Origin: Flavobacteriaceae bacterium
GTDB lineage: Bacteria > Bacteroidota > Bacteroidia > Flavobacteriales > Flavobacteriaceae
Assembly: GCA_012959395.1 (NCBI GenBank)
Contig: DUDG01000038.1
Coordinates: 15,544 to 62,188 of the forward strand
DNA: 46,645 bases
Direction of reading: 5' to 3'
The notes below the pieces were generated by a model. It ran no database searches. It had not been told where the DNA came from and was given only the letters and a program-made list of their open reading frames with translations. The number at the start of each line of letters is the position of its first letter. Positions within the stretch are counted from its first letter, which is position 1. Below are positions 15,899 through 46,580 of the stretch, piece after piece. A program made the translations under genes and the position numbers.

Positions 15899-17557
15899 TT
15901 AATTAATCTCAATTGCTCCTAAATCTGGAAGACCAGTAATTTTATTTCCTAGTATATCAAATTCTAATTCTAATCCTTTAAAAAGACCTATAGTGTCATT
16001 TGAAATATTATGAATTTTAATTCCTTTGTTTTTTATTAGATTAATATTTTTTGGAATATAATCTTTAATATTTTGACCTCCTTTATTTGAAAATTTAGAA
16101 TTACCAAAAAAACTATTTTTTGGCTGAATTAAAACATTTTTTGGCCAGTAAGAATCATTCAAAAATAAATTGTTTTCAAAAAACACATTTTGAACTTTCC
16201 CTTTTCCTAATTTATCAGGACGATATTGATCTCCCAGAACGAATTCACTCTTCCCCTCAATGTGAAAAATATTATTAACTACTAAAACTCCATCTGTAGC
16301 TTTATCTACTGCAATTTTGGATAATAAAGATTCATTTGTATATATAGTGTTATTATATATATAACTATTAAAAGGACCATTTCTTTCATTATTTTTTCCA
16401 GTAAAACCACTTAGCCAAAAAGTTTTACCTTCTTGAAATGCATTTTGTTTCCCCTTAATCCTATGACCATCATTAACACTAATATTATATCTATAAGAGC
16501 AATTATAATTATTTCCTAAAATTTCAATAAATCCACCTGCATTTTCTACACTTAAATTATATTGAACAATTACATTATCACAATTAAAATCTATATGACA
16601 ACCTGCAGAATCTGCAGGACCATTAGCATACATAAATGAATTTTTTTCTATTAGAACATTAGAGGCCCCCCAAGTCCATAACCCACTTCCTCTTCCCCAT
16701 TTTCTACCATCATCAGGGCTTCCTGAATATTTGACATTATTATTATGAGCATGCAAGTTTTCAACTAGGCTAAATTGCAAGCTTGGCCCACCTGTCCTTC
16801 TAAGTTTATTATTTGCAACTTCGATGTTTTTAAATCTATTTTTACTTCCATTAGAAGTCATTTTAATACCAGTATGTCCAACATTTTCAACATAACAATT
16901 AGTTACTGAAATACCATCTATGAATCCTGCCTTACTAGAATTATAAAATCTAATTCCAAAACCATAAGCTTGTGTACCCATTGAAGTTCTCACTTCATTA
17001 GAATCTCTGATAAAACCCTTGTCCTCATAAAAAAGATCTTTAACGGTAACATTATTAATTGAAATATTTTTAAAAGTCTTATTTGAACTTACGTTAACCA
17101 AAACACCAGCTCTCATAATAGCCTTATCGACTGATCTTTTAGTTTTTAGATTTGGATACTGTTCAATAACTCCACCTCCATTGGCAGTAATTAATATATT
17201 AGAAATCGAAATATTAGAAGAATTTTCAAGATATATACCTGCAATGTGTCCTTTAGAATCAATTATTGGATTTGAATTATTTTCATCTTTTATATTATAA
17301 TTTGAAATATATATTTTATCTAAACTGATAATCTTTATATTTCCTTTAAAATAAGATCCATTTGATAAAAATATACTATCACCTGAATTTAGGAATATTG
17401 TTTTTAATTTTTTTAAAGTTTTAAATGGTGATTCAATTGAAGTTCCATGATTAGAATCACTTCCGATATCTGAATCAAAATAATAAGAACCAGATTTAGA
17501 CCTTTCCTTACAGGAAATAAAAAGAATTATTAAAAAAAGAAATCGAATAGTTTTCAT
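15899..17557 (-). CDS. Right-handed parallel beta-helix lipoprotein (second of a tandem pair)
   Basis: A 552-residue protein with a lipobox (LFISC, Cys16). It then has the DSNHGTSIESPFKTLKKL-type opening (about residues 33-50) common to secreted beta-helix enzymes, and many Asn-rich coils (NNKLRR, NNIF, NNTIY) as expected for parallel beta-helix rungs. A central block with RGSGLWTWG, HIDFNCDNVIVQYN, GGFIEILGNN and YRYNISVNDG is shared almost word for word with the neighbour at 17563, so the two are paralogs. Beta-helix folds include polysaccharide lyases and glycoside hydrolases, but no catalytic motif of a known family was recognised. It starts 5 bases after its upstream neighbour's stop. 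Confidence 0.8.
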   Translation of the reverse strand: MKTIRFLFLIILFISCKERSKSGSYYFDSDIGSDSNHGTSIESPFKTLKKLKTIFLNSGDSIFLSNGSYFKGNIKIISLDKIYISNYNIKDENNSNPIIDSKGHIAGIYLENSSNISISNILITANGGGVIEQYPNLKTKRSVDKAIMRAGVLVNVSSNKTFKNISINNVTVKDLFYEDKGFIRDSNEVRTSMGTQAYGFGIRFYNSSKAGFIDGISVTNCYVENVGHTGIKMTSNGSKNRFKNIEVANNKLRRTGGPSLQFSLVENLHAHNNNVKYSGSPDDGRKWGRGSGLWTWGASNVLIEKNSFMYANGPADSAGCHIDFNCDNVIVQYNLSVENAGGFIEILGNNYNCSYRYNISVNDGHRIKGKQNAFQEGKTFWLSGFTGKNNERNGPFNSYIYNNTIYTNESLLSKIAVDKATDGVLVVNNIFHIEGKSEFVLGDQYRPDKLGKGKVQNVFFENNLFLNDSYWPKNVLIQPKNSFFGNSKFSNKGGQNIKDYIPKNINLIKNKGIKIHNISNDTIGLFKGLELEFDILGNKITGLPDLGAIEIN

Positions 17558-17562
17558 TGATT

Positions 17563-19326: not shown

Positions 19327-19428
19327 GTTTAACTTTTTAATTCTAATAACGTTAATTTCAAAGTCTAAATTTATATAAAACCTATTGTTTTAATAATTAC
19401 AAATAATTCAAAAATTAGGTTATATAAT

Positions 19429-20958
19429 TTAATGTACATTCAATATTTTCTTGTCATCAGGCCAAGGGACTAAAGTGTTTGTAGATGTTTGAATGGGCAT
19501 TTGTGCATTTACTTTTCTTAAATAATTCCCTAACTCTTTTGATAATTCTTTCAATTTAACCTTTTCAGAACTTGCTAAATTATTAAGCTCGCCAACATCT
19601 TTATTAATATTGAAGAGTTCGAAATTACTGTCTAAATGATAATAGATTAATTTCCAATCTCCTTTTCTTATAACACTTCCAGCAGCAATACCAGGACCAT
19701 TTCCTCCCCAATTGTTAGGGTAGTGCCAAAAAAATGATCTGTCGTTTGGAATTTCTATTTCCCCCTTTAATAAAGAAGTAAAACTTATACCATCAACATT
19801 CTGAACGGTTTTGTAGTTATTAATTTGTGCCATCTCTAAAACTGTCGAAAAAAAATCTTCTATAATTACAGGTTTATTTGTTGTACTTGCTTTCTTAGTC
19901 TTTCCAGGCCATTTTACTATCATTGGTTCTCTTATTCCACCTTCGTATAAGGAACCTTTGCCGCTTTTAAGTGGTTTATTATGCGTATGTTTTTCTCCTC
20001 CTCTTGCATGAGCACTTAATCCTCCATTATCAGACATGAATAATATTATAGTATTATCACTAATTCCTTTTTTATTCAGATGATTCATTAAATCCCCAAG
20101 ACTTTTATCCATTCCTTCAATCATTGAAGCGTATTTAGCTTCAATAGAATCCAATCCTTTGTTTAAATAATTTTGTTCAAATCGTGAGTCTCCTTGAATT
20201 GGGGTATGGACTGCATAATGTGCCATATATAAAAAAAAGGGCTTTTTATCATCAATACTTTTATCTATTTCTAAAATCGCTTCATTAGTTAAAGCTTCAC
20301 TTAAAAAAATATCTTTACCGTGATATTTCTCTAATCCCGGAACATCCCATATTTTTTCAATTCTCCTTTTGTTTTGGAAATTTTTTAAACCATAATAACT
20401 TCCAGGTGCACCAGCTGCATGCCCAGCAATATTAACTTCAAACCCTAAACTTAATGGATTTGCTCCTGGTGTAGTTAAAGCACCAAAGTGAGCTTTTCCA
20501 ACGTGAATGGTTTTGTAGTTGTTGTTTTTTAGAATTTGTGGAAGAGGCGTGATGTGAATAGAATTTTCAATAGAATCTATTGGTTGAGCACCATTCATAT
20601 TCCACCTAGGGATTTGCAAACCTACTGGGTCTTTTTCCATAGAAATATTTCTTCTTAACGTCCAATTAGTCACTCGATGTCTTGCAGCATTCATTCCAGA
20701 AATTAAACTAACTCTAGTAGGGGTACAAACCGGTGTAGAGTAAGCCTGGGTAAATTTCATTCCTTCTGAAGCTAAACGCTCCATATTTGGAGTTTTGTAT
20801 ATTCTGTTAAAATTTGTTTTTTCTTTCCAAAAAGGCACAGAAGTGTCTTGCCAACCCATATCATCTACCAAAAAAATAATAATATTTGGTTTTTGAGTAG
20901 TTTTACAAGAAAGGATAGATATTAGAATTATAATTGAGATTATTTTTGTAAAATTCAT
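19429..20958 (-). CDS. S1 family sulfatase lipoprotein (CTPTR)
   Basis: A 509-residue formylglycine-dependent sulfatase with lipobox SILSC (Cys18). The first metal ligands are in FLVDDMGWQD (Asp32, Asp33). The maturation motif is CTPTR at residues 78-82 (Cys78 becomes formylglycine), followed by the family continuation SLISGMNAARHR. FMSDNGG and the KSGKGSLYEGGIREP segment complete the site. The WQDTSVPFW insertion after the metal ligands suggests a distinct S1 subfamily from the other five, but the subfamily was not assigned. It would remove sulfate esters in the periplasm or at the surface. It is divergent from the cassette starting at 21329 and lies upstream of the beta-helix pair. Confidence 0.93.
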   Translation of the reverse strand: MNFTKIISIIILISILSCKTTQKPNIIIFLVDDMGWQDTSVPFWKEKTNFNRIYKTPNMERLASEGMKFTQAYSTPVCTPTRVSLISGMNAARHRVTNWTLRRNISMEKDPVGLQIPRWNMNGAQPIDSIENSIHITPLPQILKNNNYKTIHVGKAHFGALTTPGANPLSLGFEVNIAGHAAGAPGSYYGLKNFQNKRRIEKIWDVPGLEKYHGKDIFLSEALTNEAILEIDKSIDDKKPFFLYMAHYAVHTPIQGDSRFEQNYLNKGLDSIEAKYASMIEGMDKSLGDLMNHLNKKGISDNTIILFMSDNGGLSAHARGGEKHTHNKPLKSGKGSLYEGGIREPMIVKWPGKTKKASTTNKPVIIEDFFSTVLEMAQINNYKTVQNVDGISFTSLLKGEIEIPNDRSFFWHYPNNWGGNGPGIAAGSVIRKGDWKLIYYHLDSNFELFNINKDVGELNNLASSEKVKLKELSKELGNYLRKVNAQMPIQTSTNTLVPWPDDKKILNVH

Positions 20959-21004
20959 AATAGATTATTAATTATATTATAAACAAATATCCTAAATTTT
21001 TAAC

Positions 21005-21037
21005 GATTTGTATTACAATTACTGTCATTTACAAATC
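21005..21037. repeat. Inverted repeat, 8-base arms with 17-base spacer
   Basis: GATTTGTA at 21005-21012 and TACAAATC at 21030-21037, perfectly complementary. It lies about 47 bases upstream of the sulfatase ATG at 20958, a plausible position for a regulator site or promoter element on that strand. Confidence 0.4.
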
Positions 21038-21254
21038 ATAAATTATCATGTTTAAAGAATTGTTAAGGTAATTAATGTTTGTAAGATGTTAATGTTAGAT
21101 TTTTTTTTTAATCAAAGGATAGTACTTTTAAAATATTAGATCATTTAAGAATGAATTTTAAATAAAGATTATGAAAAATTGTATAAGCATTTTAAGATTA
21201 TTGTAAGCAAAGTCAAGAATTTAATGTAACCCATTGTTAATTTCTGGTTTAAAC

Positions 21255-21708: not shown

Positions 21709-22848
21709 ATGATTATAGAAAAAATAGAAACGTACATTTTAAAAGACACATTATCTAAAAGTTTTTTCTTTTCTCAATGGGAATATTCAGAAAGATGTAT
21801 TTGTGTTGTAAAAGTTACCACATCTGATGGACATTATGGTTGGGGCGAAGGGTATGGACCAGCATCAGTTTTAGAAGCAGGTATTAATTTTTTAAAACCA
21901 ATAGTCTTAAATAAGAATCCATTAGAAAACGAAGTGATTTGGAGTGAAATGTATAGGAAAACTTTAGATTTTGCTCGTCGTGGTATCCTAGTGGCATCAA
22001 TGAGTGCTATTGATATTGCTCTTTGGGATTTAAAAGGGAAAATTTTAAACTTACCTGTATCTCTACTTCTAGGTGGGGTATATAGAAAAAAAATAAAACC
22101 TTATGCAACTGGACTGTATTTTTCAGATCGAAATAATCCTTCAAAAGATTTTGACGAAGAAGCAGCTAATTATGTATCTCAAGGCTTCAAAGCTATTAAA
22201 ATGAAGGTAGGATTAGGGGTTGATTTAGATTTCAAACATGTTAAAAGAATGCGAGAGGTTATAGGCGATGATATTCAGCTTATGGTAGATTCTAACCATG
22301 CGTATTCGTTAAGTGAAGCAATTGCTTTAGCAAAGAAAATAGAACCTTTTAACATTTCTTGGTTTGAAGAGCCTATTTCTCCAGAGTATTATGAACAGTA
22401 TAACGAGTTAAGAAACAAAACTACTATTCCAATATCTGGTGGAGAGTGTGAATATTTACGTTTTGGATTTCATCAATTATTAAAAAACAAATCTGTTGAT
22501 ATAATTCAACCTGATATTTGTGCAAGTGGTGGTTTAACTGAAGCTAAAAGAATTGCAGCATTAGCTAGTACTTATGGCGTAGACGTTATTCCTCATACAT
22601 GGGGAACATCAATCGGGATACACGTAGCGCTTCATTTTATTTCAAATCTAGAGTTAATGCCTGGTAGAATGATGGTTCCGGATTTTTTAATTGAATACGA
22701 TCAAACAGAAAATGTTCTTCGTGATAAATTAACATTCCCTTCCTTAGTAATGAAAGATGGAATGATTGAAGTTCCAACTGGACCAGGTCTTGGTATGGAT
22801 GTAAATGAAGATATATTAAAAAAGTATTCTATTTCAAGAAGTTTATAA
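21709..22848 (+). CDS. Enolase-superfamily sugar-acid dehydratase (mandelate racemase subgroup)
   Basis: A 379-residue protein with the full MR/MLE active site: the KMK pair at about Lys164/Lys166, metal ligands Asp194 (MVDSNH), Glu220 (WFEEP) and Glu246 (GGECE), and the Asp269-His296 dyad (QPDI and PHTWG). These numbers are nearly those of mandelate racemase. Both a Lys and a His base are present, as in acid-sugar dehydratases of the MR subgroup. Expected reaction: loss of water from an aldonate such as fuconate, rhamnonate or galactonate to give the 2-keto-3-deoxy acid. The neighbours (aldehyde dehydrogenase, HpcH aldolase, RhaT-type carrier) point to a 6-deoxyhexonate. Exact substrate not determined. 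Confidence 0.88.
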   Translation: MIIEKIETYILKDTLSKSFFFSQWEYSERCICVVKVTTSDGHYGWGEGYGPASVLEAGINFLKPIVLNKNPLENEVIWSEMYRKTLDFARRGILVASMSAIDIALWDLKGKILNLPVSLLLGGVYRKKIKPYATGLYFSDRNNPSKDFDEEAANYVSQGFKAIKMKVGLGVDLDFKHVKRMREVIGDDIQLMVDSNHAYSLSEAIALAKKIEPFNISWFEEPISPEYYEQYNELRNKTTIPISGGECEYLRFGFHQLLKNKSVDIIQPDICASGGLTEAKRIAALASTYGVDVIPHTWGTSIGIHVALHFISNLELMPGRMMVPDFLIEYDQTENVLRDKLTFPSLVMKDGMIEVPTGPGLGMDVNEDILKKYSISRSL

Positions 22849-22863: not shown

Positions 22864-24309
22864 ATGAAGACTCAAAATTTTGGATATAAAAAACTTTATA
22901 TTAATGGGGAGCTAGTAGACTCTATAAATAAAAAAAGAATTAAAGTAATATGCCCTGCTACAGGGAAAGCTATTGCTGAAATTGCTGAAGCTGGAAAGGA
23001 AGATGCTGAAAAAGCTTTGGAATCTGCTCAAAAAGGTTTTAAATATTGGTCCAAATTAACCTTGTCAGAAAGAAGTAGTTGGATGTCTAAATTAAGAGTT
23101 GCTATTTTAGATAAAGAAGCAGAATTGCGTTCAGCCATTATTCATGAAATGGGAAAAACATACGCTGGATCATATGAAGATATTGAAGCGTTGGTAAATT
23201 CTCTAGATTGGTATCCAAATGCCATGAAAAACTTAAGAGAAGAACAAATTCCTGACTATGAAAACACACATACACATAAAATGATTCAACAACCAGCTGG
23301 TGTGGCTATTGCTTATTTAGCATGGAATTTTCCTTTATTGAATGTTGGTTTTAAATTAGGTCCAGCATTAGCTTCAGGATGTTCTATTATTATAAAACCT
23401 TCTGATTTGTCGCCTTTATCAACTTATATGTTAGGTGAAATTTTATATGATATTAATTTCCCTGCGGGAGTTGTAAATATTTTAACAGGGCCAAATAGTG
23501 AAGTGGCGACAACCATGACTAAAAGTAAAATTCCAGCAATACTAACTATGATTGGCTCTACTGCAACAGGAAAAAAAATAATTGCCGATAGTACAACGTC
23601 CATAAAAAAATTAGGAATGGAGCTAGGGGGTAATGCTCCATTTATCATTTTTGATGATGCTGATTTTGAAAAAGCTTTGGATCTTGCAATTGGTTTAAAA
23701 TTTGGAAATACGGGACAAATTTGTGTTGCTGCAAACAGGATTTTTGTTCATAAAAATATTCATGATAAATTTCTAAATGCATATATAAAAAGAGCTTCTA
23801 AACTAAAACTTGGTTTTGGTGTTGAAGAAACACCTGATATGGGCCCTTTAATTACTAGAAATGACAGAGACAGAATGTTTGATTTAATAGATGATGCTAT
23901 CAGTAAAGGTGCTACTATAGAATACGGAGGAAAAATTCCTAAAGGATTAGAAAACGGAAATTGGATTCAGCCTACTGTAATTTCTGGAATGACAACAGAC
24001 ATGAGGTTATTTACAGAAGAAACTTTTGGGCCAATTGCACCTATTATGAGTTTTGATTCTGATGATGAAGTTTTAGAAATGGCTAATGATACAGAATATG
24101 GATTGGCATCATATATATTTACTAATAATCACCAAAGAATTCAGCGTTTTACAGAGGATTTACAATTTGGAGAGATTCAAATAAATGGTGTAAAATACTC
24201 AATATATCTTCCCCATGGTGGCATTAAGAATAGTGGCTTAGGACACGATTGTTCTCACTTAGCTTTAAATAATTATTTAATTAAAAAAAGAGTTTCAATA
24301 GCTTTATAA
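22864..24309 (+). CDS. NAD(P)-dependent aldehyde dehydrogenase
   Basis: A 481-residue ALDH-superfamily enzyme. The visible catalytic residues are Glu253 in ELGGNAP and Cys287 in GNTGQICVAANR. The cofactor Lys is at about 178 in IKPSDLSP, and GSTATGKKI forms the nucleotide-binding turn. Overall it is closest in style to the succinate-semialdehyde/lactaldehyde group. In this cassette the best role is oxidation of lactaldehyde, made by the downstream aldolase, to lactate. 2-Ketoglutarate semialdehyde or another semialdehyde cannot be excluded. It starts 15 bases after the dehydratase and ends one base before the aldolase ATG, so it is almost surely in the same operon. Confidence 0.88.
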   Translation: MKTQNFGYKKLYINGELVDSINKKRIKVICPATGKAIAEIAEAGKEDAEKALESAQKGFKYWSKLTLSERSSWMSKLRVAILDKEAELRSAIIHEMGKTYAGSYEDIEALVNSLDWYPNAMKNLREEQIPDYENTHTHKMIQQPAGVAIAYLAWNFPLLNVGFKLGPALASGCSIIIKPSDLSPLSTYMLGEILYDINFPAGVVNILTGPNSEVATTMTKSKIPAILTMIGSTATGKKIIADSTTSIKKLGMELGGNAPFIIFDDADFEKALDLAIGLKFGNTGQICVAANRIFVHKNIHDKFLNAYIKRASKLKLGFGVEETPDMGPLITRNDRDRMFDLIDDAISKGATIEYGGKIPKGLENGNWIQPTVISGMTTDMRLFTEETFGPIAPIMSFDSDDEVLEMANDTEYGLASYIFTNNHQRIQRFTEDLQFGEIQINGVKYSIYLPHGGIKNSGLGHDCSHLALNNYLIKKRVSIAL

Positions 24310-24310
24310 T

Positions 24311-25075
24311 ATGTTGAAAAACAATTTAAAATCAAAACTTTTGAAAGGCGAATCTGTTTTCGGGCCTTTTTGTAAACTACAAGATTCCAGTGTAGTAGAA
24401 ATAGCTGCTCTAGCTGGTTTTGATTTTGTCATTTTAGATATGGAACATGGGCCTTTTAGCGTGGAAAGTGTTCAAGATCTCAAACGGGCTGCAGAAGCCA
24501 GAGGCATTGAAGTAGTTGTGCGAGTAACCGAAAATAACCCCTCAAATATATTACGTATTCTTGATATAGGTGTAAATTCAATTCAAGTTCCTCAAGTGAT
24601 CACAACTGTAGATGCCCAAAAAGTAATTAATGCAAGCTATTTCTACCCCAAGGGAGAACGCGGTATGTGTAGGTATGTTCGAGCAGCTTCATATACACAA
24701 ACAAACAAGAAAATCCATTTTTCTTCTGCCAATTCAGACATATTAACAATTGTACACATTGAGGGTATTGAAGGATTTAATAATTTGACTAAAATGGTAA
24801 TCCTTGACGGGATTGATGTTATTTTTTTAGGCCCCTATGACTTGTCGCAGTCTTGTGGTGTTCCAGGTGAAATAGACCATCCAGAAGTGGTTAACAAAAT
24901 GAAGCTAGCCGTTGAAATGGCAAAAGAGCATAATAAGATTATTGGCACTTTCTGTGAAAGCGTCAAAGATGCACATAAGTGGCGTGACCTAGGAGTACAA
25001 TATATTGCCTATTCGGTTGACGTGGGCATCATATACAACAAATATTCTGAAATTGTAAAACAACTTAATAGTTAA
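24311..25075 (+). CDS. HpcH/HpaI family 2-keto-3-deoxy sugar-acid aldolase
   Basis: A 254-residue class II pyruvate aldolase. Visible residues are the base in LDMEHGP (His46), Arg71 in VVVRV, the metal ligands Glu151 (HIEG) and Asp177 (LGPYDLS), and the KGERGMCRY segment. These positions sit within two or three residues of those in YfaU/HpaI (His49, Arg74, Glu153, Asp179), as far as they are remembered. YfaU cleaves 2-keto-3-deoxy-L-rhamnonate to pyruvate and lactaldehyde, and a fuconate-derived analogue would do likewise. Base composition looks richer in GC than its neighbours: about 39% in a hand-counted 240-base sample (24481-24720), versus about 32% in 120 bases of the aldehyde dehydrogenase gene. 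Confidence 0.88.
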   Translation: MLKNNLKSKLLKGESVFGPFCKLQDSSVVEIAALAGFDFVILDMEHGPFSVESVQDLKRAAEARGIEVVVRVTENNPSNILRILDIGVNSIQVPQVITTVDAQKVINASYFYPKGERGMCRYVRAASYTQTNKKIHFSSANSDILTIVHIEGIEGFNNLTKMVILDGIDVIFLGPYDLSQSCGVPGEIDHPEVVNKMKLAVEMAKEHNKIIGTFCESVKDAHKWRDLGVQYIAYSVDVGIIYNKYSEIVKQLNS

Positions 25076-25086: not shown

Positions 25087-26112
25087 ATGGAGTCAATTAT
25101 ATTACCGTTTTTACTGATTATTATTGCCAGTGTTTTTCAAGGTTCATTTGGTCTAGGTATGAAATACATGGCACCTTTAAGGTGGGAGTCATGGTGGCTT
25201 ATTCACGTAACAATTGCAATGATCATTTTACCAATGACTTGGGCTTTTTTAGTTGTACCAGATTTAGGGGAAGTTTTAAGTATATCTTTTTCAGATCCAA
25301 CTATGCAAAGTGTCGTTTATATGGCAATGTTTTTTGGATTTCTTTGGGGAATAGGTGGTATTTTATTTGGAGTAAGCGTTCCTTATATTGGTTTGTCATT
25401 AACCATGGGGATAGTAATGGGATTAGCTGGTTCTATAGGAGCATTAATTCCTTTGCTTCAAATGGAAAATGCAACAACTACTCCTCAATTTCCATACATA
25501 ATTATTGGCTTAGCTATTTCTATTTTGGGGGTTGCTATTACAGCTAAAGCGGGAATTGATAAAGATAAAATGACCTCACAAACATCTGGTGAGAAATCAA
25601 ATATTGTCAAAGGAATCTTAATTGCGGTATCATGTGGTGTTTTATCCGCTTTGTTAAATGTTGGTTTTGTTAAAGCTGCACCTATTGCGAAATTAGCAGA
25701 AGAGATGGGTGCTATAGATAGAAATGCAAGCTTAGCTGCTTGGGTTGTTGTATTAATTGGGGCTTTTGCTATGAATGCTGGCTATGCTGTTTTTTTACTA
25801 TTTAAAAATAAATCATGGAGTTCTTTTAAAATACAAGGCTCTTCAAAATCATATAGGTGGGCTATTTTAGCAAGTGTTTTTTGGTTTGGAGCATTAGGTA
25901 TTTATGGTCAAGGAGCAGCTTTAATTGGACCTATAGGGGGAGTTATTGGATGGCCAATGCTTTTAGGGTTATCTCTAATTATAAGTAATTTTTGGGCTTA
26001 TAGAGCAGGTGAGTGGAGTGGAGCAAAAAAACCATTTAACTTATTATTAGTTGGTTTAATTATACTTATTGGATCAAGTATAATTCTAGGTTATTCTAAT
26101 TCTGTAATTTAG
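25087..26112 (+). CDS. rhaT: RhaT-family sugar/H+ symporter
   Basis: A 341-residue inner-membrane protein with about ten transmembrane helices, equal in length to E. coli L-rhamnose/H+ symporter RhaT (344). Family features include the GMKYMAPLRWESWW segment after helix 1, FGFLWGIGGILFGVSVPYIGLSL, and GWPMLLGLSLIISNFWAYRAGEW near the C-terminus. The symbol marks family membership. Since the locus also suggests fucose, the carried sugar could be either L-rhamnose or L-fucose, or a related acid. It is the last gene of the cassette, 11 bases after the aldolase, and ends before a strong symmetric terminator. Confidence 0.85.
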   Translation: MESIILPFLLIIIASVFQGSFGLGMKYMAPLRWESWWLIHVTIAMIILPMTWAFLVVPDLGEVLSISFSDPTMQSVVYMAMFFGFLWGIGGILFGVSVPYIGLSLTMGIVMGLAGSIGALIPLLQMENATTTPQFPYIIIGLAISILGVAITAKAGIDKDKMTSQTSGEKSNIVKGILIAVSCGVLSALLNVGFVKAAPIAKLAEEMGAIDRNASLAAWVVVLIGAFAMNAGYAVFLLFKNKSWSSFKIQGSSKSYRWAILASVFWFGALGIYGQGAALIGPIGGVIGWPMLLGLSLIISNFWAYRAGEWSGAKKPFNLLLVGLIILIGSSIILGYSNSVI

Positions 26113-30900: not shown

Positions 30901-31107
30901 TGAAGAATTTTCGTTAATTAAAGTTATTGTATAATTACCATCAAAATCTGAATTAACTCCGTTAACAGTTCCTTGTTCAATTATAGAAACACCTGGAAGA
31001 GGTACTCCGTCAGCAGTTACATTTCCGGTTATTGTTTTCTGAGAAAATAGCGATCCAATTCCAAAGACAAAAACTATTAGAATGTTTAAAAAGTTTAATT
31101 TTTTCAT
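27961..31107 (-). CDS. susC: SusC/RagA family TonB-dependent outer-membrane transporter
   Basis: A 1048-residue protein with a signal peptide (1-22), then a carboxypeptidase-regulatory-like domain (about 23-95, TITGNVTADGVPLPGVSI to GNYTITL). The TonB box region is LEEVVVTGYG (about 100-110), followed by the plug domain (about 115-230, with VLIDGVES and SISVLKDAAATIYGARAGNG). The rest is the 22-strand barrel with the usual aromatic ending (TGIKIGF). It imports oligosaccharides bound by SusD using the TonB-ExbBD motor, which is not in this window. A 121-base gap separates it from the HTCS gene upstream, likely with its own promoter. Confidence 0.96.
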   Translation of the reverse strand: MKKLNFLNILIVFVFGIGSLFSQKTITGNVTADGVPLPGVSIIEQGTVNGVNSDFDGNYTITLINENSSLVFSFIGFITQTVSASSANIDIVMVEDIAKLEEVVVTGYGSTTKKTLTGAIGTVSSEALTLRPTQNTTELLMGQIAGLSTRQSGSLPGNDWANLSIRNFGSPMVLIDGVESTLGQIDPNDIQSISVLKDAAATIYGARAGNGVILVTTKRGSDAAEGAKFSYHGTTTWSSLVTMPNTVNAHQFAELMEENGLGAENEMPEYLDYDTTRKRVYNRITGEDFDGVDWYRTIYKDWTPQKQHNLSARGRSDKIGYFISLGFTDTQSAFRDADYTHNRYNIRSNLDAEFNDNLSARLDISYRQTTLDRANFGIQEMYNRLGTGKPTNLPIFPNPDFASQTGAATPYSPVYMTRKSHSGTRLDRDNNLQASISLKYDVPFIDGLSATASLNMETQTEWNKKVQKKFNMYTYNPLLGEGDAAYVFFGTYQRDMITVDSDRDMELLPKLTLNYENSWDEHALKATFVAESTTFERDYLMGSRTDPLSFEAPYLNYSSEAERNNAEIFSQSARSSYVGRVNYDYKQKYLFEATMRADATARYAVEGRWGYFPSISFGWRISQEDFMKDSPTWNNLKLRASYGLMGNDAVSNFDYLTGYNISSGFYMFDGKPFPIISSAGLANRLVTWETMKIANIGIEGTLWNGGLGFELDVFYRLREDILAIPDSDIPFHFGASLPKTNLNSRDNRGFDLMLKHKGKIGNVSYNINPMVSFSRGKYVSWEENILPTDGADGAANATYNNRYVLTGNWDDRQWGYQTNGFFTSQSQIDNHPVDIDGAGNVTLIVGNLIKIDQNGDGLIDWKDQVVVGQGGMPKWNYSTNMGAKYKNWNLDMLWQGATGYTITFGGSAGPWSHSGHQTVSKSFAYENRSIRGANGDIEILRAFPPTFTTGGMPQVDQGASDFNKVDAMYLRLKTISLSYNIPKNIVDKIGLTSIQLYLAGSNLLTIDNLGVYSGSYDPEIVSGVGGVGGVDRAYPNNKTLTTGIKIGF

Positions 31108-35323: not shown

Positions 35324-35355
35324 CAAAAAATTAAACTATAGAATTAATATATGAT

Positions 35356-39944
<4,589 letters not shown>

Positions 39945-40102
39945 GTATGTAAATAAATAAAATTTTATCATAATCTATTGGGATAAAGTAATCATTATGT
40001 AGGTTTAATAAGTATAATTTAATGAATTATTTAGCCTATAATTATGCATTATATGTTCTGTTTATTAATAACTATATTACCTATTTTTACTAAAAAACAA
40101 AC
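39945..40102. promoter_or_regulatory. Divergent promoter region between two sulfatase operons
   Basis: 158 AT-rich bases between the sulfatase at 39944 (minus) and the sulfatase at 40103 (plus). It holds GTAGGTTTA at 39999-40007, which also occurs at 21292-21300 ahead of the sugar-acid cassette. No certain promoter boxes were placed. Confidence 0.4.
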
Positions 40103-41977
40103 ATGAATTCAAATTTAAAATTCTTTTTTTTAATAATTTTAATAGCATTAGTTGTTAATTTTTCTTTATTATCAGAAATTAATGAAGAAAAACCAAATAT
40201 AGTTTGGTTAGTTACCGAAGATAATTCAGTCCATTATATGAATTTATATACTGAAGGAGGGGCTGAAATGCCTGTAGTTGCCAATTTGGCAAATGAAGGT
40301 GTTATTTTTGACAATGCATTTTCAAATGCTCCTGTTTGTTCTGTTGCTAGAAGTACAATAATTACAGGGGCATATGCACCTAGAATTGGAACTCAATATC
40401 ACAGAAAATCATCACCAGTAAATTTACCTAAAAACATAATTCCTCTTCCAATTTATTTAAAAGAATTAGGCTATTACACCACTAATAATGCAAAAGAAGA
40501 TTATAATTTTATTAAAGAAAATAAAATATGGGATGAATCGTCATTGAAAGCTAGTTATAAAAATAGAAAAGCTGGACAACCTTTTTTTCATGTTCAAAAT
40601 TATCACGCAACTCATGAAGGAAAATTACATTTTAATAAAAAAGAGCTTAGTAGTGCTCTTGAATTAAATGATTTAGACAGCATCACTCCATTTCCATATC
40701 ATCCAGATACTCCAACTTTTAGATATACTCAATCTTTACTTCATACCCACCACAAGAATATTGATAAAGAAATGGGAAAATTTATTGAAAATTTGAAAAA
40801 AGAAGGATTAATGGAAAATACCATTATTTTTTTCTATGGTGATCATGGTGGGGTTTTACCTAGAAGTAAGGGTTATTTATATGAAAGTGGCCTCAATATT
40901 CCTTTTGTTGTATATGTTCCTGAAAAATGGTCTCATCTTTCGCCTTTTAAAAAAGGAACTAGAACTTCTACATTTATTGATTTTGTTGATTTAGTCCCTA
41001 CTGTATTATCTATAGCTGGAATTAAAATCCCTGATGGAATGGATGGTACTCCTTTTTTAGGAAAAGATTTAAAAAAGAGTAACCTTGAAAAACAAAATAT
41101 CACATTTGGTTATGCTGATAGATTTGATGAAAAATATGATCTAGTTAGATCTGTTAGAAAAGGAAAATACAAGTACATTAGAAACTACCAGCCCTTTAAT
41201 GTAGATGGAATATATAATTTTTACAGATACAAAATGCTAGCTTATAAAGAATGGTATAATCTATTTAAAGAAGGAAAGTTAAATAAGATTCAAAGTCAAT
41301 TTTTTCTTCCTAGAACACCTGAAGCACTTTATGATATAGAAGAAGATCCTCATGAGATCAATAATTTAGCTAAACATAAAAAACATAAAGAAACATTACT
41401 AAACTTAAGAGAAACTTTAAATAATCACGTAGTTTCTCAACCAGATCTTAGTTTTTTTCCAGAACCTTATTTTTTAGAAAATGGATTAGAAAATGCTGTA
41501 GATTTTGGTCAAAAAAATAAAAAAATAATTGAAAGCCTTGTAGAAACAGCTAATTTAAACTTGTATCCTTACAAGGATGTTTCTTCAGAAATTAAAAATG
41601 CTTTAGAAAATGAGAATCCATGGATAAGGTACTGGGGGCTTATAGTATGTTCTTCTTTTGGAATAGATGCAAAAGAGCACTTGAATAATATAAATTCAAT
41701 TTTTGAAAACGATTCAGAAAATTTAGTAAAAATAAGAGCTGCCGAGTACCTTCTTCTTAATAATTTAAAAATAGATTCGTCAAAAATTAATAATTTATTA
41801 AAAAATGCTAATTCTGAATCTGAAGCAAATCTTATGCTCAACACATTAGCTTTAATTAAAATAAAAAACCCTAATTACAAATTAGAACTAAACAAAAGTG
41901 TTTTCCCAAAGAAATGGTTTGAAAGGGAAAATGCACTTGTTAATAGAAGAATGAATTATTTAACTGACAGCGAATAG
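40103..41977 (+). CDS. S1 family sulfatase with CSVAR motif and C-terminal HEAT-like helices
   Basis: A 624-residue protein with an uncleaved-anchor or signal-peptidase-I type N-terminus (no lipobox Cys). The metal site is TEDNS (Glu39, Asp40) instead of DD, and the formylglycine motif is CSVAR at Cys79, with Val where Pro or Ala is usual. FYGDHGGVLPRSKG replaces the common SDNGG. Such variants are seen in part of family S1, so it is probably active rather than dead. Residues about 500-620 form alpha-helical HEAT-like repeats (NPWIRYWGLIVCSS, LVKIRAAEYLLL), an addition absent from the other five sulfatases. It starts the plus-strand sulfatase pair, and its TAG overlaps the following start region. 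Confidence 0.88.
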   Translation: MNSNLKFFFLIILIALVVNFSLLSEINEEKPNIVWLVTEDNSVHYMNLYTEGGAEMPVVANLANEGVIFDNAFSNAPVCSVARSTIITGAYAPRIGTQYHRKSSPVNLPKNIIPLPIYLKELGYYTTNNAKEDYNFIKENKIWDESSLKASYKNRKAGQPFFHVQNYHATHEGKLHFNKKELSSALELNDLDSITPFPYHPDTPTFRYTQSLLHTHHKNIDKEMGKFIENLKKEGLMENTIIFFYGDHGGVLPRSKGYLYESGLNIPFVVYVPEKWSHLSPFKKGTRTSTFIDFVDLVPTVLSIAGIKIPDGMDGTPFLGKDLKKSNLEKQNITFGYADRFDEKYDLVRSVRKGKYKYIRNYQPFNVDGIYNFYRYKMLAYKEWYNLFKEGKLNKIQSQFFLPRTPEALYDIEEDPHEINNLAKHKKHKETLLNLRETLNNHVVSQPDLSFFPEPYFLENGLENAVDFGQKNKKIIESLVETANLNLYPYKDVSSEIKNALENENPWIRYWGLIVCSSFGIDAKEHLNNINSIFENDSENLVKIRAAEYLLLNNLKIDSSKINNLLKNANSESEANLMLNTLALIKIKNPNYKLELNKSVFPKKWFERENALVNRRMNYLTDSE

Positions 41978-41982
41978 TGATT

Positions 41983-43467
41983 GTGAAAAAAATACTAACC
42001 TTAATTCTTTTAACCACTTTTATCTCTTGCCAAACTAGTGACTCTAAAGAAAAAAAACCCAATATTGTATTAATTATGGCTGATGATTTAGGTTGGAGTG
42101 ACCTATCTTATATGGGTTCAAATTATTACGAAACCCCTAATATTGATAAGCTTGCAAAAAGTGGAATGATATTTTACAATGCATATGCATCTTCTGCAAA
42201 CTGTGCGCCAAGTAGAGCGTCCATGATGACAGGAAAATACCATCCAGATCATGGAATTTATACTGTAAGTCCTTCTGATCGTGGGATTGATAAAACAAGA
42301 AAAATAATCCCAACAAAAAATACAGAAAATTTAGATTTAGATTTTTTTTTGATACCAGAAATGTTAAAAAGTGAAGGGTATATTAATGCTCATGTTGGAA
42401 AGTGGCATTTGGGCTCTAAGGGTTTTTATCCTGAGCAAAATGGATTTGATATTAATATAGGAGGTTGGGAAAAAGGGAGTCCAAAAGGAGGTTATTTTTC
42501 TCCTTATAAAAATCCTAAATTAGAAGATGGTCCAAAAGGAGAGTATTTAACCGATAGACTAACTAATGAAGCAATTAAATTCATTGATCAAAACAAAAAA
42601 AAACCATTTTTCTTGCACTTATCTTTTCACTCAGTTCATACCCCAATTCAAGCTAAAAAAGAATACCAAGAAAAATATTCTAAAAAAAATGGAGATGAAA
42701 ATCATAATCGATCTGATTATGCTGGCATGATTAATTCACTTGACGAAAATATTGGAAGAGTGCTAAATAAAATTGAGAAATTAGGATTATCTGAAAATAC
42801 GTTAATTATTTTTACATCTGATAATGGAGGGATTAGATCAATATCAAATCAATATCCTCTAAGAGCTGGAAAAGGATCTTACTATGAAGGAGGAATAAGA
42901 GTTCCTTTGATTTTTTCATGGCATGGTAAAATTACTGCTGGAACAAAATCATATGAAAGAGTTAGCAATATTGATTTTTATCCAACTATAAAAAATGTAA
43001 TAGACCACAATAATGAAAATTTAGAACTGGATGGAGTTGACTTAAATCCAATATTTGAAGGAAAAAATTTAAAAAAAAGAGCTTTGTTTTTCCATTTTCC
43101 TATCTATTTGGAAGCATACAATGTTCGGAAGGACGATGGGAGGGATCCTTTGTTTAGAACAAGACCTGGATCAGTAATTATTAAGGATAACTGGAAGCTT
43201 CATCACTATTTTGAAGACAATGGATTAGAGCTTTACAATATTGATAACGATGTTTCAGAATCAAAAGATTTAAGTAAAAAAAATAAAGAAAAAACCAAAG
43301 AGCTATTTGACGATTTAAAAAAGTGGAGAGAAGATAAAAATGCCCCTATTCCATCAGACAAAAATCCTAAATACAATCAAAAATTTGTTGACAGTCTAAT
43401 TTTTTTAATAAAAGATAAAAAACTAAGTGGAAGAGTTAAAGGCTTAATAAGGGTTTTGGATCATTAA
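41983..43467 (+). CDS. S1 family sulfatase lipoprotein (CAPSR)
   Basis: A 494-residue sulfatase counted from the GTG at 41983, which gives a typical MKKILTLILLTTFISC lipoprotein signal. Another in-frame GTG at 41977 sits inside the upstream TAG and adds two residues. The metal site is MADDLGWSDL, the maturation motif CAPSR has Cys at about residue 74, and GKWHLGS and FTSDNGGIRS follow. It is five bases after the preceding sulfatase, so the pair should be cotranscribed. The C-terminus is basic (KDKKLSGRVKGLIR). It is convergent with the next sulfatase, sharing TTAA at their stop codons. Confidence 0.92.
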   Translation: MKKILTLILLTTFISCQTSDSKEKKPNIVLIMADDLGWSDLSYMGSNYYETPNIDKLAKSGMIFYNAYASSANCAPSRASMMTGKYHPDHGIYTVSPSDRGIDKTRKIIPTKNTENLDLDFFLIPEMLKSEGYINAHVGKWHLGSKGFYPEQNGFDINIGGWEKGSPKGGYFSPYKNPKLEDGPKGEYLTDRLTNEAIKFIDQNKKKPFFLHLSFHSVHTPIQAKKEYQEKYSKKNGDENHNRSDYAGMINSLDENIGRVLNKIEKLGLSENTLIIFTSDNGGIRSISNQYPLRAGKGSYYEGGIRVPLIFSWHGKITAGTKSYERVSNIDFYPTIKNVIDHNNENLELDGVDLNPIFEGKNLKKRALFFHFPIYLEAYNVRKDDGRDPLFRTRPGSVIIKDNWKLHHYFEDNGLELYNIDNDVSESKDLSKKNKEKTKELFDDLKKWREDKNAPIPSDKNPKYNQKFVDSLIFLIKDKKLSGRVKGLIRVLDH

Positions 43468-44885
43468 TACTTAAATCGATCAGGGTTTAGCTTGTTATAT
43501 TGATCATTTGCTAATAGACCTAAAAAAATAGGATCCATCAAAGTTTTAGACCATCTTTTATACTCATTTTTAAGGCTATCATACATTTCTTTTTCTTGAT
43601 CTTTTAAATTGGTTTGTTCTGAAATTTCTTTTTTTAAATTATAAAGCGCATCCACTTGTTTATTTTTGATAAACTTAAATTTTTCAGATCTAACAGCTGA
43701 AGCCTCGGTTCTTAATTCATTTTTGTTTTGCATGAAATTATTTCTCCAAAATAAATTGCTATGTGGAGAATGTTTTTTTTCTCCCTTTAAAAAAGGAATA
43801 AGATTAACCCCATGTAACTTGTTTTTAGGTGTGATTTCAGGAGAAGTAATTGCTTTTGATGTAGCAAAAATATCAAGCGAACTTACTGGTTTATCAAATG
43901 TTTGACCTCCTTTAATTTGGCCAGGCCATTGCATTACAAAAGGAACTCTTACGCCTCCTTCAAACAAATTTCCTTTTTTACCTCTAAGTTCTCCGTTATC
44001 TGAATCACCTTTCAATCTACCTCCATTGTCTGAAAGAAAATATACAATAGTATTATCATAAATGCCTTTTTCTTTTAGTTTGGATATAATAGTTCCTATT
44101 CCATCATCCATCGCACTTACCATTGCAGCATAAGTTCTTCTGTTTTTGCTTTCAATTTCTAGAAATCTATTTAAATATTTTTCTGTTGCTTGCAATGGGC
44201 CATGGGGAGCATTATATGCCAAATAAATAAAAAATGGATTATTTGCATTTCTTTCAATAAAATTTACACTCTCTCTTGACAAAGCATCAGTTAAATATTC
44301 TTTCTCTTCTATTCTCTGTTCATTTCTTAAGAGTTTAGTTCTGTAAGCACCATTTTGACTTTTAACCTTAGTTTCATCTTCTAAATCCCATTCATATGGA
44401 AAGTATCTATGTCCTCCAGTTAAAAAACCAAAAAACTCATCAAACCCTCTTTTCATTGGCCTTAAACTTTCATGGGCTCCAAGATGCCATTTCCCAACAG
44501 CAAAAGTTTTGTAATTTGAAAGTTTAAGCATATCAGCAATTGTTTGCTCGGATAATGGCAGCCCCATGTTTGGATCTTTTGGAGTAAATAACGGGTTTTT
44601 GCCAAACCCAAAAGTATCTTGATATCTTCCAGTTATTAAACCTGCTCGACTTGGTCCACAAACAGGATAAGAAACATAGCCTTCAGAAAAAACAACTCCA
44701 TTTTTAGCAATATCATCAATATGAGGAGTTTTAATATCTTTAGAACCGTTAAAACCAACATCAGCATATCCTAAGTCATCTGCTAAAATAATTATGACGT
44801 TTGGTAATTCTGTATTCTCATTAATAACAGAACTACAGCTAATTACAGTTATATATAAAAATAAAAAGGTGTAGATGTTTTTCAT
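43464..44885 (-). CDS. S1 family sulfatase lipoprotein (CGPSR)
   Basis: A 473-residue sulfatase with lipobox VISC (Cys17), metal site LADDLGYADVG, formylglycine motif CGPSR (Cys76), GKWHLGAHE and FLSDNGG. It is closest by eye to the sulfatase at 38562 (both have LADDxGYADxGF, RRTYAAM/RKTYASM and a short C-terminus), so these two may share a subfamily. Its role is removal of sulfate esters from the same polysaccharide. It is divergent from the sulfatase at 45021 (135 bases between) and appears to be a single-gene unit. Confidence 0.92.
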   Translation of the reverse strand: MKNIYTFLFLYITVISCSSVINENTELPNVIIILADDLGYADVGFNGSKDIKTPHIDDIAKNGVVFSEGYVSYPVCGPSRAGLITGRYQDTFGFGKNPLFTPKDPNMGLPLSEQTIADMLKLSNYKTFAVGKWHLGAHESLRPMKRGFDEFFGFLTGGHRYFPYEWDLEDETKVKSQNGAYRTKLLRNEQRIEEKEYLTDALSRESVNFIERNANNPFFIYLAYNAPHGPLQATEKYLNRFLEIESKNRRTYAAMVSAMDDGIGTIISKLKEKGIYDNTIVYFLSDNGGRLKGDSDNGELRGKKGNLFEGGVRVPFVMQWPGQIKGGQTFDKPVSSLDIFATSKAITSPEITPKNKLHGVNLIPFLKGEKKHSPHSNLFWRNNFMQNKNELRTEASAVRSEKFKFIKNKQVDALYNLKKEISEQTNLKDQEKEMYDSLKNEYKRWSKTLMDPIFLGLLANDQYNKLNPDRFKY

Positions 44886-45020
44886 AAATAAACTTTATTA
44901 ATTTAAAATTAACAATAATTATTCTAGATATTGAATTATTTTATTTTTATGAATGTTATAACCCTTAAAATGAGTTAAAAGACCCATAAATCGAATAAAA
45001 GGTATACTTATATTTATAAA

Positions 45021-46580
45021 ATGATTAAAATAATATTCTCCTCACTCAAAATTACGTTACTTTCTTTATTATTTATAGGTTGTGCAGATCTTCAGAAAAA
45101 AAATAATAAAGAAATCAAACCCAACATTATTATTATTTATACAGATGACTTAGGATATGGTGATGTTAGTGCATATAAAAGAGGAACTTTAAACACTCCT
45201 AATATTGATAAGCTAGCAAATGAAGGTATGAGATTTACTAATGGTTATGCTTCTTCCGCAACATGTAGCCCTAGTAGGTACGCCTTGTTAACTGGAACTT
45301 ATCCATGGAGAAATCCAAGAGCAAAAATATTAACAGGAGCTTCACTAATTATTGATACAACAGAAATGACCATACCTAAGGTATTAAAAACTAAAGGATA
45401 TCACACCGGTATTGTTGGCAAATGGCATCTAGGCCTAGGCTCAGGTAAAATAGATTATAATTCTAATATATCACCTGGCCCTAATCAAGTAGGTTTTGAT
45501 TATTCCCACATTATGGCAGACACGCAAGATCGAGTTCCAAGTGTTTATATAGAAAATGGTTATGTAGTAAATCTAGATCCAAATGATCCTATAGAAGTTA
45601 ACTTTTCTTCCCAAAAAGAAAATAATGACTACGGTCTTCCAACAGGATTAAAAAACCCTGAATTAACTACTATGAAATGGCACCACGGTCACAATAGTTC
45701 TATTATAAATGGTGTGCCTAGAATTGGATATATGAAAGGAGGAGAAAAAGCAAAATGGAGCGATATCGATATGGCAGATCATTTTTTAGGAAAAGCTCAA
45801 GAATATATTAAAGAACATAAAGACAAACCTTTCTTTCTATATTATGCTCTGCAGCAGCCTCATGTGCCAAGAACACCCCACCCTAGATTTGAAGGTAAAT
45901 CTGGAATGGGCCCTAGAGGAGATGTAATTGTTGAGGCAGATTGGTGTGTTGGAGAATTTTATAAAACGTTAGAAGCCGAAGGGATTTTAGACAATACATT
46001 GATCATTTTTTCTAGTGATAATGGACCAGTTCTAAATGATGGATATTATGATGATGCTGTTGAAAAGCTTGGAGACCACACCCCTTCTGGTGGATTAAGA
46101 GGAGGAAAGTATAGTTTATTTGAAGCTGGTGCAAAAGTTCCTTTTATTGCCTATTGGAAAGGAAAAATAAAACCCAATGTTTCAAATGAAATAATCTCTC
46201 AAATAGATCTTTTTAATTCCATTTCCACTATAGTCGGCACAGACTATAAATCAAAAGATGGTATAGATTTTTCTAACTTAATTTTAAATAATGAAGGAAA
46301 CGGAAGAAATGAACTTATTCTTGAAGCATCAACTAGAACTGCATATAGAAATGGAGATTGGGCAATGATCCCTCCATATAATGGGGTAGCAATTAGTGAT
46401 TATACAAATATTGAATTAGGGAATTCAAAAGATTTTAAACTATATAATCTAAAAGACGATCCTTCACAAAAAAATGACCTTGCTAAAAAAGAACCAGAAA
46501 AGCTAAAGGAAATGATATCTAAATTTGTTAAAATTAGAGGAAGTAATTTTTCTAACATCGAAAATCTAAAATTAGAGTAA
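45021..46580 (+). CDS. S1 family sulfatase lipoprotein, arylsulfatase-like (CSPSR)
   Basis: A 519-residue sulfatase with lipobox LLFIGC (Cys21), metal site YTDDLGYGDVS, motif CSPSR (Cys82), GKWHLGLGS, and FSSDNGPVLNDGYYDD with the metal-binding Asp-Asn. A long insert (about 150-260) with TTMKWHHGHNSSI and the SGGLRGGKYSLFEAGAKVPF segment places it in the arylsulfatase A-like branch with a galactose- or hexosamine-6-sulfatase-type layout, though the substrate is not certain. It is the last gene in the window. Only 65 AT-rich bases follow, without a terminator or further ORF. Confidence 0.92.
   Translation: MIKIIFSSLKITLLSLLFIGCADLQKKNNKEIKPNIIIIYTDDLGYGDVSAYKRGTLNTPNIDKLANEGMRFTNGYASSATCSPSRYALLTGTYPWRNPRAKILTGASLIIDTTEMTIPKVLKTKGYHTGIVGKWHLGLGSGKIDYNSNISPGPNQVGFDYSHIMADTQDRVPSVYIENGYVVNLDPNDPIEVNFSSQKENNDYGLPTGLKNPELTTMKWHHGHNSSIINGVPRIGYMKGGEKAKWSDIDMADHFLGKAQEYIKEHKDKPFFLYYALQQPHVPRTPHPRFEGKSGMGPRGDVIVEADWCVGEFYKTLEAEGILDNTLIIFSSDNGPVLNDGYYDDAVEKLGDHTPSGGLRGGKYSLFEAGAKVPFIAYWKGKIKPNVSNEIISQIDLFNSISTIVGTDYKSKDGIDFSNLILNNEGNGRNELILEASTRTAYRNGDWAMIPPYNGVAISDYTNIELGNSKDFKLYNLKDDPSQKNDLAKKEPEKLKEMISKFVKIRGSNFSNIENLKLE

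Follow-up and report, generated by a model that had tools for sequence, protein, structure and literature searches.

A polysaccharide utilization locus of a Flavobacteriaceae bacterium with six sulfatases, a DauA/DauB-like cassette, and two GH136-like beta-helix lipoproteins points to a carrageenan-type sulfated galactan

Results

The locus joins sensing, uptake, desulfation, and monosaccharide catabolism

We analyzed a stretch of 46,645 nucleotides from Flavobacteriaceae bacterium (GenBank assembly GCA_012959395.1, contig DUDG01000038.1, positions 15,544 to 62,188, forward strand; hereafter, the window), in which an earlier note had described a polysaccharide utilization locus (PUL) at positions 15899-46580. 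All of the PUL genes named there were recovered from open reading frames and Pfam/NCBIfam matches: six S1 sulfatases (PF00884, 123 to 226 bits), a SusC/SusD pair, a hybrid two-component sensor/regulator (HTCS), a GH2 beta-galactosidase, two beta-helix lipoproteins (here BHa and BHb), and a four-gene catabolic cassette (Table 1). This gene set is far beyond chance. With a SusC and SusD pair, a regulator, and degradative enzymes, it is a SusCD-type PUL in which, as the note had proposed, sensing, uptake, depolymerization, and monosaccharide catabolism are joined. A simple pattern search located a lipobox at the N terminus of both beta-helix proteins and of five of the six sulfatases. We consider it probable that the PUL serves a carrageenan-type sulfated galactan and that the beta-helix lipoproteins make the other backbone cut in place of an enzyme of family GH127. 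This reading draws on gene content, predicted fold, conserved residues, homology, synteny, and gene complementarity, from which we infer both the reactions and the substrate.

Table 1. Features of the PUL, in window positions; E values follow the Protein Data Bank (PDB) entries matched
Feature	Positions	Strand	Evidence
BHa, GH136-like right-handed beta-helix lipoprotein, 552 aa	15899..17557	-	Pfam Beta_helix; predicted dyad D316/D323
BHb, GH136-like right-handed beta-helix lipoprotein, 587 aa	17563..19326	-	predicted dyad D354/D361
S1_16-like sulfatase, lipoprotein, predicted galactose/GalNAc 4-O-sulfatase	19429..20958	-	PDB 6uss 6e-184, 7oza 5e-179; best match titled with a subfamily 9fo1 (S1_16) 2e-79; CTPTR motif
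DauB-like 3,6-anhydro-D-galactonate cycloisomerase (enolase superfamily)	21709..22848	+	PDB 5olc 4e-147, 57% identity; tree
DauA-like 3,6-anhydro-D-galactose dehydrogenase (aldehyde dehydrogenase family)	22864..24309	+	50% identity to DauA-position gene of G133; tree
HpcH/HpaI class II pyruvate aldolase	24311..25075	+	PF03328
RhaT-family transporter, possible anhydro sugar importer	25087..26112	+	PF06379; 56% homologue beside dauB in L105
SusD-like lipoprotein	26194..27915	-	PF07980, PF14322; 72-75% homologues in L113 (partial), L114, L120
SusC-like TonB-dependent transporter	27961..31107	-	TIGR04056, 740 bits; 64-66% homologues (partial) in L114, L120
HTCS	31229..35326	-	Pfam Reg_prop, Y_Y_Y, HisKA, HATPase_c, Response_reg, HTH_18
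GH2 LacZ-type beta-galactosidase	35356..38565	-	NF052611 (beta_gal_Bga2A) 1001.7 bits, cut-off 999
S1_19-like sulfatase (carrageenan galactose-4-sulfatase type), lipoprotein	38562..39971	-	PDB 6bia 1e-92, 6prm 1e-91, 6b0j 2.5e-90; titled S1-19 match 9hh3 3e-81; CSPSR motif
S1_8-like sulfatase, closest to S1_8C	40103..41977	+	PDB 9bba S1_8C 4e-161, next 2e-61; motif CSVAR
S1_16-like sulfatase, lipoprotein	41977..43467	+	PDB 9fo1 'k-carrageenan sulfatase S1_16' 3e-106; CAPSR motif
S1_19-like sulfatase, lipoprotein	43464..44885	-	PDB 6bia 5e-110, iota-carrageenan sulfatase 6b0k 5e-108; CGPSR motif
S1_15-like sulfatase, lipoprotein, predicted galactose-6-sulfatase	45021..46580	+	PDB 7ozc 5e-182; S1_15A 9bas 6e-140; CSPSR motif

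The cassette is closest to DauA and DauB of carrageenan catabolism

The cassette comprises an enolase-superfamily enzyme, an aldehyde dehydrogenase (ALDH), an HpcH/HpaI aldolase, and a RhaT-like carrier, with gaps of 15, 1, and 11 bases between them. Its first two enzymes are, by sequence comparison, closest to DauB and DauA of carrageenan catabolism. Among the best 60 of 164 PDB matches, the best solved relative of the cycloisomerase was Zobellia DauB (5olc, 494 bits), whereas the L-rhamnonate dehydratases among the matches listed scored 113-144 bits. As a Zobellia yardstick, we took locus L105 of genome G133, which carries a gene 99% identical to 5olc (G, C, and L numbers are our labels for genomes, contigs, and loci). 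Next to this dauB are genes for a RhaT-like protein, an ALDH, a KDPG/KDPGal-type aldolase, and a GH127, along with one for a protein of 317 aa that has no NCBIfam match and that we presume to be the DauC kinase. The window cycloisomerase was 57% identical to the DauB-position genes of G133, G511, and G416 and at most 37% identical to other enolase-family genes, 36% being the maximum in two Zobellia-like genomes; the window ALDH was 50-51% identical to the Dau-cluster ALDHs of the same three genomes, the next ALDH being 35% identical. In the ALDH tree, the 27 DauA-like rows grouped together (100/99), separate from the four other ALDHs, and in the cycloisomerase tree some outside rows were long-branched, leaving the deep order open. 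By best matches and trees, the window holds genes of the dauA and dauB type found in carrageenan utilization systems.

An agar (L-anhydrogalactose) pathway was considered and rejected: the solved 3,6-anhydro-alpha-L-galactonate cycloisomerase 5xd7 reached 133 bits where DauB reached 494, and in the Zobellia-like genomes the other ALDH/enolase pair, presumably for agar, is just 35%/30% identical to the window pair. In those genomes, the next-best ALDH (35%) adjoins an enolase-family gene 30-32% identical to the window cycloisomerase.

The dauC kinase and dauD aldolase were not found in the window, where the HpcH aldolase stands in their place. NCBIfam models for HpaI, GarL, and rhamnonate aldolase all scored it below cut-off; it is predicted to split 2-keto-3-deoxygalactonate without phosphorylation. 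To place this arrangement among relatives, we compared cycloisomerase neighborhoods across 397 family genomes, 35 of which, the source genome included, gave 36 matches (E at most 1e-80) in two groups, one 72-81% identical to the window and the others 54-68%. Twenty loci were examined with about 10 kb on each side, and four more regions were added (G521 C6, G358, G434, and G605). These neighborhoods are cut at contig ends, and each gene in them took the name of its best BLASTP hit among the proteins of the analysis itself, so that divergent families can be missed and subfamily labels are best-hit names. All 12 loci of the window group (L087-L098) had the ALDH and seven had the HpcH aldolase; L087 and L095 instead had a sugar kinase and a small, presumed KDPG-type aldolase nearby, and three had neither aldolase type nor kinase within the examined stretch. 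Because the dehydrogenase is kept whichever lower branch is present, it would act before the branch point. Matches to KDG/KDGal kinase models, all short of the cut-off, were obtained for the L087 kinase and for the kinases of two beta-helix loci (L114 and L120), whereas similarity alone gave the L095 kinase its name. The aldolase of L114 reached the cut-off of the eda model. A kinase of KDG/KDGal type in the aldolase's place implies that the sugar keeps its 6-hydroxyl. That speaks against a 6-deoxyhexonate as intermediate in those relatives and, by homology, in the window.

A GH127 lies near the cassette in five of the 12 window-group loci (the L093 copy is partial), sharing 64-69% identity with those of Zobellia-type loci. 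DagA-type GH127 genes therefore accompany both cycloisomerase groups, which favors the same pathway in both, though not with certainty. For one of these genes (L092:199-2181), the sole NCBIfam match was 'aceric acid hydrolase', with a score under the cut-off; anhydrogalactosidases may thus be mislabeled when named automatically.

The DauA/DauB-like pair might instead act on another sugar (an aldose, a lactone, or an acid), in which case the substrate would be a sulfated galactan devoid of 3,6-anhydro-D-galactose. Identities of 57% and 50% leave room for a change of substrate, the window type branches separately from the Zobellia type in the trees, and 23 positions differ consistently between the two types. 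We nevertheless regard this alternative as improbable. The GH127s in five of 12 window-type loci speak against it, as do 33 positions that are common to 22 aligned DauB-like rows and differ from galactarolactone cycloisomerase 4ggb; an ALDH as the first step would, moreover, suit an anhydro sugar with a free aldehyde.

The sulfatases point to galactose rather than to a deoxy sugar

Sulfatase subfamilies were named from PDB titles and papers, not from SulfAtlas; 7oza and 7ozc we take to be S1_16 and S1_15 enzymes, respectively. Five of the six sulfatases carry the formylglycine motif C-x-P-x-R, and the S1_8-like one reads C-S-V-A-R at the same place. A sulfatase located next to the GH127s of a Zobellia-like cluster (L210) shares 40% identity with the S1_19-like sulfatase at 43464. 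The second sulfatase of that cluster (L210:13985-15628), presumably of the cgsB (S1_7) type, is 28% identical to its best match among the window sulfatases, there being no certain S1_7 reference.

Published work, cited here by PubMed Central number, assigns activities to these subfamilies. S1_19 enzymes act on the galactose-4-sulfate of carrageenan (PMC6923384). In a lambda-carrageenan pathway, S1_8C removes the 2-sulfate from terminal beta-galactose so that GH2 can act, and S1_15 enzymes remove 6-sulfate (PMC12549532). Bacteroides S1_15 and S1_16 enzymes have 6- and 4-sulfated Gal/GalNAc, respectively, as substrates, and a Trp contact of S1_16 is kept in just 37% of S1_16 sequences (PMC10154612). 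The six sulfatases appear to fall mostly with galactose (or Gal/GalNAc) sulfatases, and galactose is the best common denominator, which is not proof. Galactose is probably a backbone sugar, not a side chain as the earlier note had it.

That note had favored a sulfated fucan- or rhamnan-like glycan and a 6-deoxyhexonate route, which would run through L-fuconate or L-rhamnonate dehydratase, an aldolase, lactaldehyde dehydrogenase, and RhaT; we consider this interpretation very improbable. The transporter is indeed RhaT-like, and the same enzyme families occur in the oxidative pathway of L-rhamnose. However, the rhamnonate dehydratases listed score far below DauB, homologues of RhaT, DauB, and DauA stand together in the Zobellia-like carrageenan locus L105, and a 6-hydroxyl is required by the kinase that replaces the aldolase in related loci. 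The sulfatases match galactose-type enzymes, and Pfam/NCBIfam scans gave no match to a fucosidase or rhamnosidase family inside the PUL. A GH29 alpha-L-fucosidase-like gene with an F5/8 domain does occur in the window (6785-8272, minus strand), but it lies outside the PUL, about 7.6 kb away; the interval contains genes for an M28 peptidase, an antiporter, an MgsA/RarA-like protein, and a beta-lactamase-fold protein, and we did not count the GH29 in the PUL.

The two beta-helix lipoproteins resemble GH136 lacto-N-biosidases

Sequence searches with BHa and BHb returned weak solved relatives, chiefly lacto-N-biosidases. AlphaFold models (mean pLDDT 83.1 for BHa and 89.6 for BHb) sharpened this likeness: in Foldseek searches, the top six chains were all lacto-N-biosidases for both BHa (E 2e-19 to 5e-13; next 2e-6) and BHb (E 5e-22 to 5e-14; next 7e-8). 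Two of the six best chains for each model are titled GH136, TM-scores ranged from 0.46 to 0.67, and structure alignments with GH136 lacto-N-biosidases gave about 17-22% identity. Both predicted models are right-handed beta-helices most like GH136 structures.

The catalytic pair of GH136 is also recognizable. In ErLnb136, D568 is the acid/base and D575 the nucleophile (PMC7335108). D354 and D361 of BHb align with this Asp pair, provided that the chain numbering is shifted by +2 from that of the paper, a shift that we infer and that fits W548 too. The seven-residue spacing of the two Asp residues is present in BHb (D354/D361) and in BHa (D316/D323). Conservation is complete in the alignments: D354, D361, W332, and R394 of BHb in 50 of 50 rows, and D316, H321, D323, and E345 of BHa in 23 of 23. 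These invariant, catalytic-type residues argue that BHa and BHb are enzymes.

Background chemistry bears on the bond that they might cut. The ring of 3,6-anhydro-alpha-D-galactose is flipped, which makes its alpha bond equatorial, as common beta bonds are, so that each of the two backbone bonds could be accommodated by a GH136-like site. The earlier note had placed the missing depolymerizing enzyme either in a beta-helix protein or elsewhere; for that role, a beta-helix protein makes a good candidate.

Close beta-helix relatives share the setting, and the family tends to complement GH127

The search for beta-helix relatives found 466, the best 80 of which were analyzed with their loci (sulfatase counts required an alignment of 150 residues). 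In the 23 loci with BHb 60-83% identical, BHa was present in 22, a DauA-like gene in 22, DauB-like and RhaT genes in 20 each, a kinase and a KDPG-type aldolase in 19 each, and an S1 sulfatase and a GH2 in 13 each; SusD was seen in three and SusC in two, many of these loci ending at contig ends. Within the examined DNA, none of the 23 had a GH127, and no DagA-type GH127 was recognized near the beta-helix genes in any of the best 80 loci. Among the other 57 loci, 31 had an S1 sulfatase and four a DauB-like gene. Nearly the gene set of the window recurs on contig C35 of G513 (SusCD, HTCS, BHa, S1_15 twice, S1_19, S1_16, S1_8, and GH2, by best hit). A PUL of G003 combines two beta-helix genes, SusCD, GH2, and S1_19, S1_16, S1_8, and S1_15 sulfatases (by best hit), followed by galM, galK, and galT.

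Across the 35 DauB-positive genomes, source genome included, a DagA-type GH127 was detected in 26 (threshold E 1e-60) and a BHb relative in 11 (threshold E 1e-10). The BHb family occurred in eight of the nine DagA-less genomes and in three of the 26 DagA-positive genomes (Fisher p 5.7e-5). The remaining DagA-less genome, G286, has neither, and in one of the three genomes with both (G596) the match is partial, at 109 residues. G521 has two DauB loci: that on contig C4 is accompanied by DagA, and that on C6 by several beta-helix genes 40-78 kb away, in a region that also holds GH2s and S1_15, S1_19, and S1_8 sulfatases by best hit. No dagA was found at E 1e-60 in the source genome, which is 67.7% complete; its one clear GH127 is 20-23% identical to DagA-type rows, and its one GH16 adjoins a GH3. 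The GH136-like beta-helix family may thus displace GH127.

Some beta-helix relatives lie in other settings. Those of L129-L140 are 40-44% identical, come mostly from Crocinitomicaceae or Bacteroidetes MED-G20 records, and have a partly conserved setting; their substrate may differ. Relatives in Deltaproteobacteria, Euryarchaeota, and Alteromonadaceae records (L152, L176, and L186) reflect either transfer or mis-binning.

Discussion

Proposed pathway and points that weigh against it

The substrate that would best account for the locus has a backbone of D-galactose, some of it in the 3,6-anhydro form, and carries sulfate at O4, O2, and O6. The HTCS would sense this glycan and SusCD would take up its oligosaccharides. 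The 4-sulfate would be removed by the S1_19 and S1_16 enzymes, the 2-sulfate by S1_8, and the 6-sulfate by S1_15, and GH2 would release terminal beta-galactose. BHa and BHb would make the other backbone cut, yielding anhydrogalactose or a disaccharide holding it, and would so replace the GH127 DagA of Zobellia. Anhydrogalactose would enter the cytoplasm, perhaps through the RhaT-like carrier, to be oxidized by the DauA-like enzyme, opened to 2-keto-3-deoxygalactonate by the DauB-like enzyme, and split by the HpcH aldolase with no kinase. The parts of such a pathway are known; what appears to be new, by sequence, is their combination in a PUL of carrageenan type whose lower branch has no kinase and in which GH136-like proteins take over from GH127.

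Several observations weigh against this proposal. The complementarity with DagA falls to 2/1/3/23 (p 0.07) among the 29 genomes at least 90% complete, and to p 8.8e-4 once repeated genus patterns are dropped, the rows being related. All six incomplete genomes are without DagA and with the beta-helix family, so that part of the lack of DagA could be missing sequence. The beta-helix genes of G513 and G660 are far from dauB or on other contigs, the PUL of G003 is without DauB, and only one (G119) of the 16 other beta-helix-positive genomes has DauB; the wider family accordingly fits sulfated galactans (or more), not anhydrogalactose alone. The twelve distant members of L129-L140 lie away from recognized sulfatases. 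The GH136 enzymes known so far act on a beta bond and depend on an additional domain or subunit (PMC7335108); general Pfam/NCBIfam scans, with no dedicated model, did not recognize this GH136-I part in the window. Nor were relatives of the carrageenan sulfatases S1_7 and S1_17 identified in the window, with no certain S1_7 reference to compare. Relatives in S1_15 and S1_16 also serve GalNAc-containing host glycans (PMC10154612), and other members of S1_8 act on other sugars (PMC12549532). Finally, the contig ends at 46645, and a GH16 or GH127 could lie beyond.

This last point supports the most serious alternative, which keeps the substrate class but assigns the cutting to a conventional enzyme of family GH16, GH82, or GH127, encoded past the contig end or in the third of the genome that is missing. 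BHa and BHb would then be accessory proteins with roles on side groups or in glycan binding. The right end of the PUL is cut by the assembly: the window ends with contig C38 (62188 bases), 65 bases past the last sulfatase gene, and the source genome is an incomplete 1.49-Mb bin of 46 contigs, with 24 sulfatase-family matches at E 0.001. A weakly GH16-like gene also adjoins the beta-helix gene in G632 and G358. Yet the best 80 related loci yielded no DagA-type GH127 near the beta-helix genes, eight of nine DagA-less DauB genomes carry the beta-helix family, the GH127 of the source genome is far from DagA and its GH16 sits beside a GH3, and the invariant residues point to an enzyme rather than an accessory protein. 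We therefore judge a conventional cutter unlikely, while giving it more weight than a different sugar for the Dau-like pair, and retain GH136-like cleavage of a carrageenan-type galactan as the probable function.

The weakly GH16-like genes themselves (L098:1294-2238 in G632; L216:7559-8524 in G358) are 25% identical to the GH16 of the source genome and are possible endo-enzyme partners. None of the nine other contig ends compared, in an assembly of 46 contigs, overlapped the cut end of the PUL; the sole overlap among them was between C13 and C42. The shared end sequence of C42 (L044 end) and C13 (L040 start) sets a GH29 (L044:10964-12307) beside another sulfatase, perhaps a separate fucose-related locus of the same genome. 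The left end of contig C17 of the source genome (G000) groups a sulfatase with another GH2, galT, and galK (L038:113-6873); this group may be a neighbor of the cut PUL, although no sequence overlap was found between that contig end and the PUL end.

Significance

Carrageenan systems also occur in some bacteria that have no known carrageenase; these could possess carrageenase families yet to be described or feed on predigested oligosaccharides (PMC5698469). The window locus and its relatives offer concrete candidates for such missing enzymes, with predicted catalytic residues. The 23 closest BHb relatives bear isolate names of a kind that we take to be used for ocean bins and single-cell genomes; the record titles state no habitat. 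Tentatively, and with less confidence than we place in the function of the PUL, we suggest that open-ocean Bacteroidota have their own carrageenan-type system, in which GH127 has given way to a GH136-like clade that would form a new glycoside hydrolase family or subfamily for sulfated galactans or 3,6-anhydro-D-galactosides. If true, its recurrence in apparently pelagic bins and single-cell genomes would mean that 3,6-anhydro-D-galactose polymers, known from red seaweeds, have an unrecognized source in the plankton; if the relatives are truly oceanic and the enzyme is active, the question becomes who makes a carrageenan-like glycan in open water. Such a pelagic system is not described in the available excerpts of PMC6794258, PMC9122927, and PMC10877868, which is no proof that none is in print.

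Comparison with known systems

The carrageenan system of Zobellia galactanivorans (PMC5698469) shares DauA, DauB, an S1_19 sulfatase, a GH2 beta-galactosidase, and SusCD with the window, and the Zobellia-like locus L105 adds a RhaT-family gene beside dauB. The Zobellia system has dagA (GH127), the dauC kinase, and the dauD aldolase, whereas the window has the HpcH aldolase and two GH136-like beta-helix proteins. The regulators also differ, being an HTCS with an AraC-type helix-turn-helix in the PUL and the AraC-family cgrA in Zobellia (PMC5698469); the SusCD pair of Zobellia is cgtA/cgtB. In clades 1-2 of the carrageenan systems, the core set consists of dauA, dauB, dauC, dauD, dagA, cgsB, cgrA, and cgtA/cgtB (PMC5698469). 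With the lambda-carrageenan PUL of Pseudoalteromonas distincta U2A (PMC12549532), the window shares an S1_8C-like 2-O-sulfatase, S1_15, and GH2. It differs from that PUL in having SusCD and an anhydrogalactose pathway, for which the lambda pathway has no need; GH110 and GH150 were not recognized in the window by general scans, no dedicated model having been run. The GH136 lacto-N-biosidases ErLnb136, LnbX, TnX, and BsaX share with BHa and BHb the predicted fold and the position of the catalytic Asp pair, but BHa and BHb sit in a sulfatase-rich galactan context. The kappa/iota-carrageenan PUL of Pseudoalteromonas fuliginea PS47 (PMC6923384) has S1_19 sulfatases and DauA in common with the window, and GH16 and GH167 where the window has beta-helix proteins. 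Its neocarrabiose-releasing GH167 would be the functional analogue of a beta-helix enzyme that releases a disaccharide.

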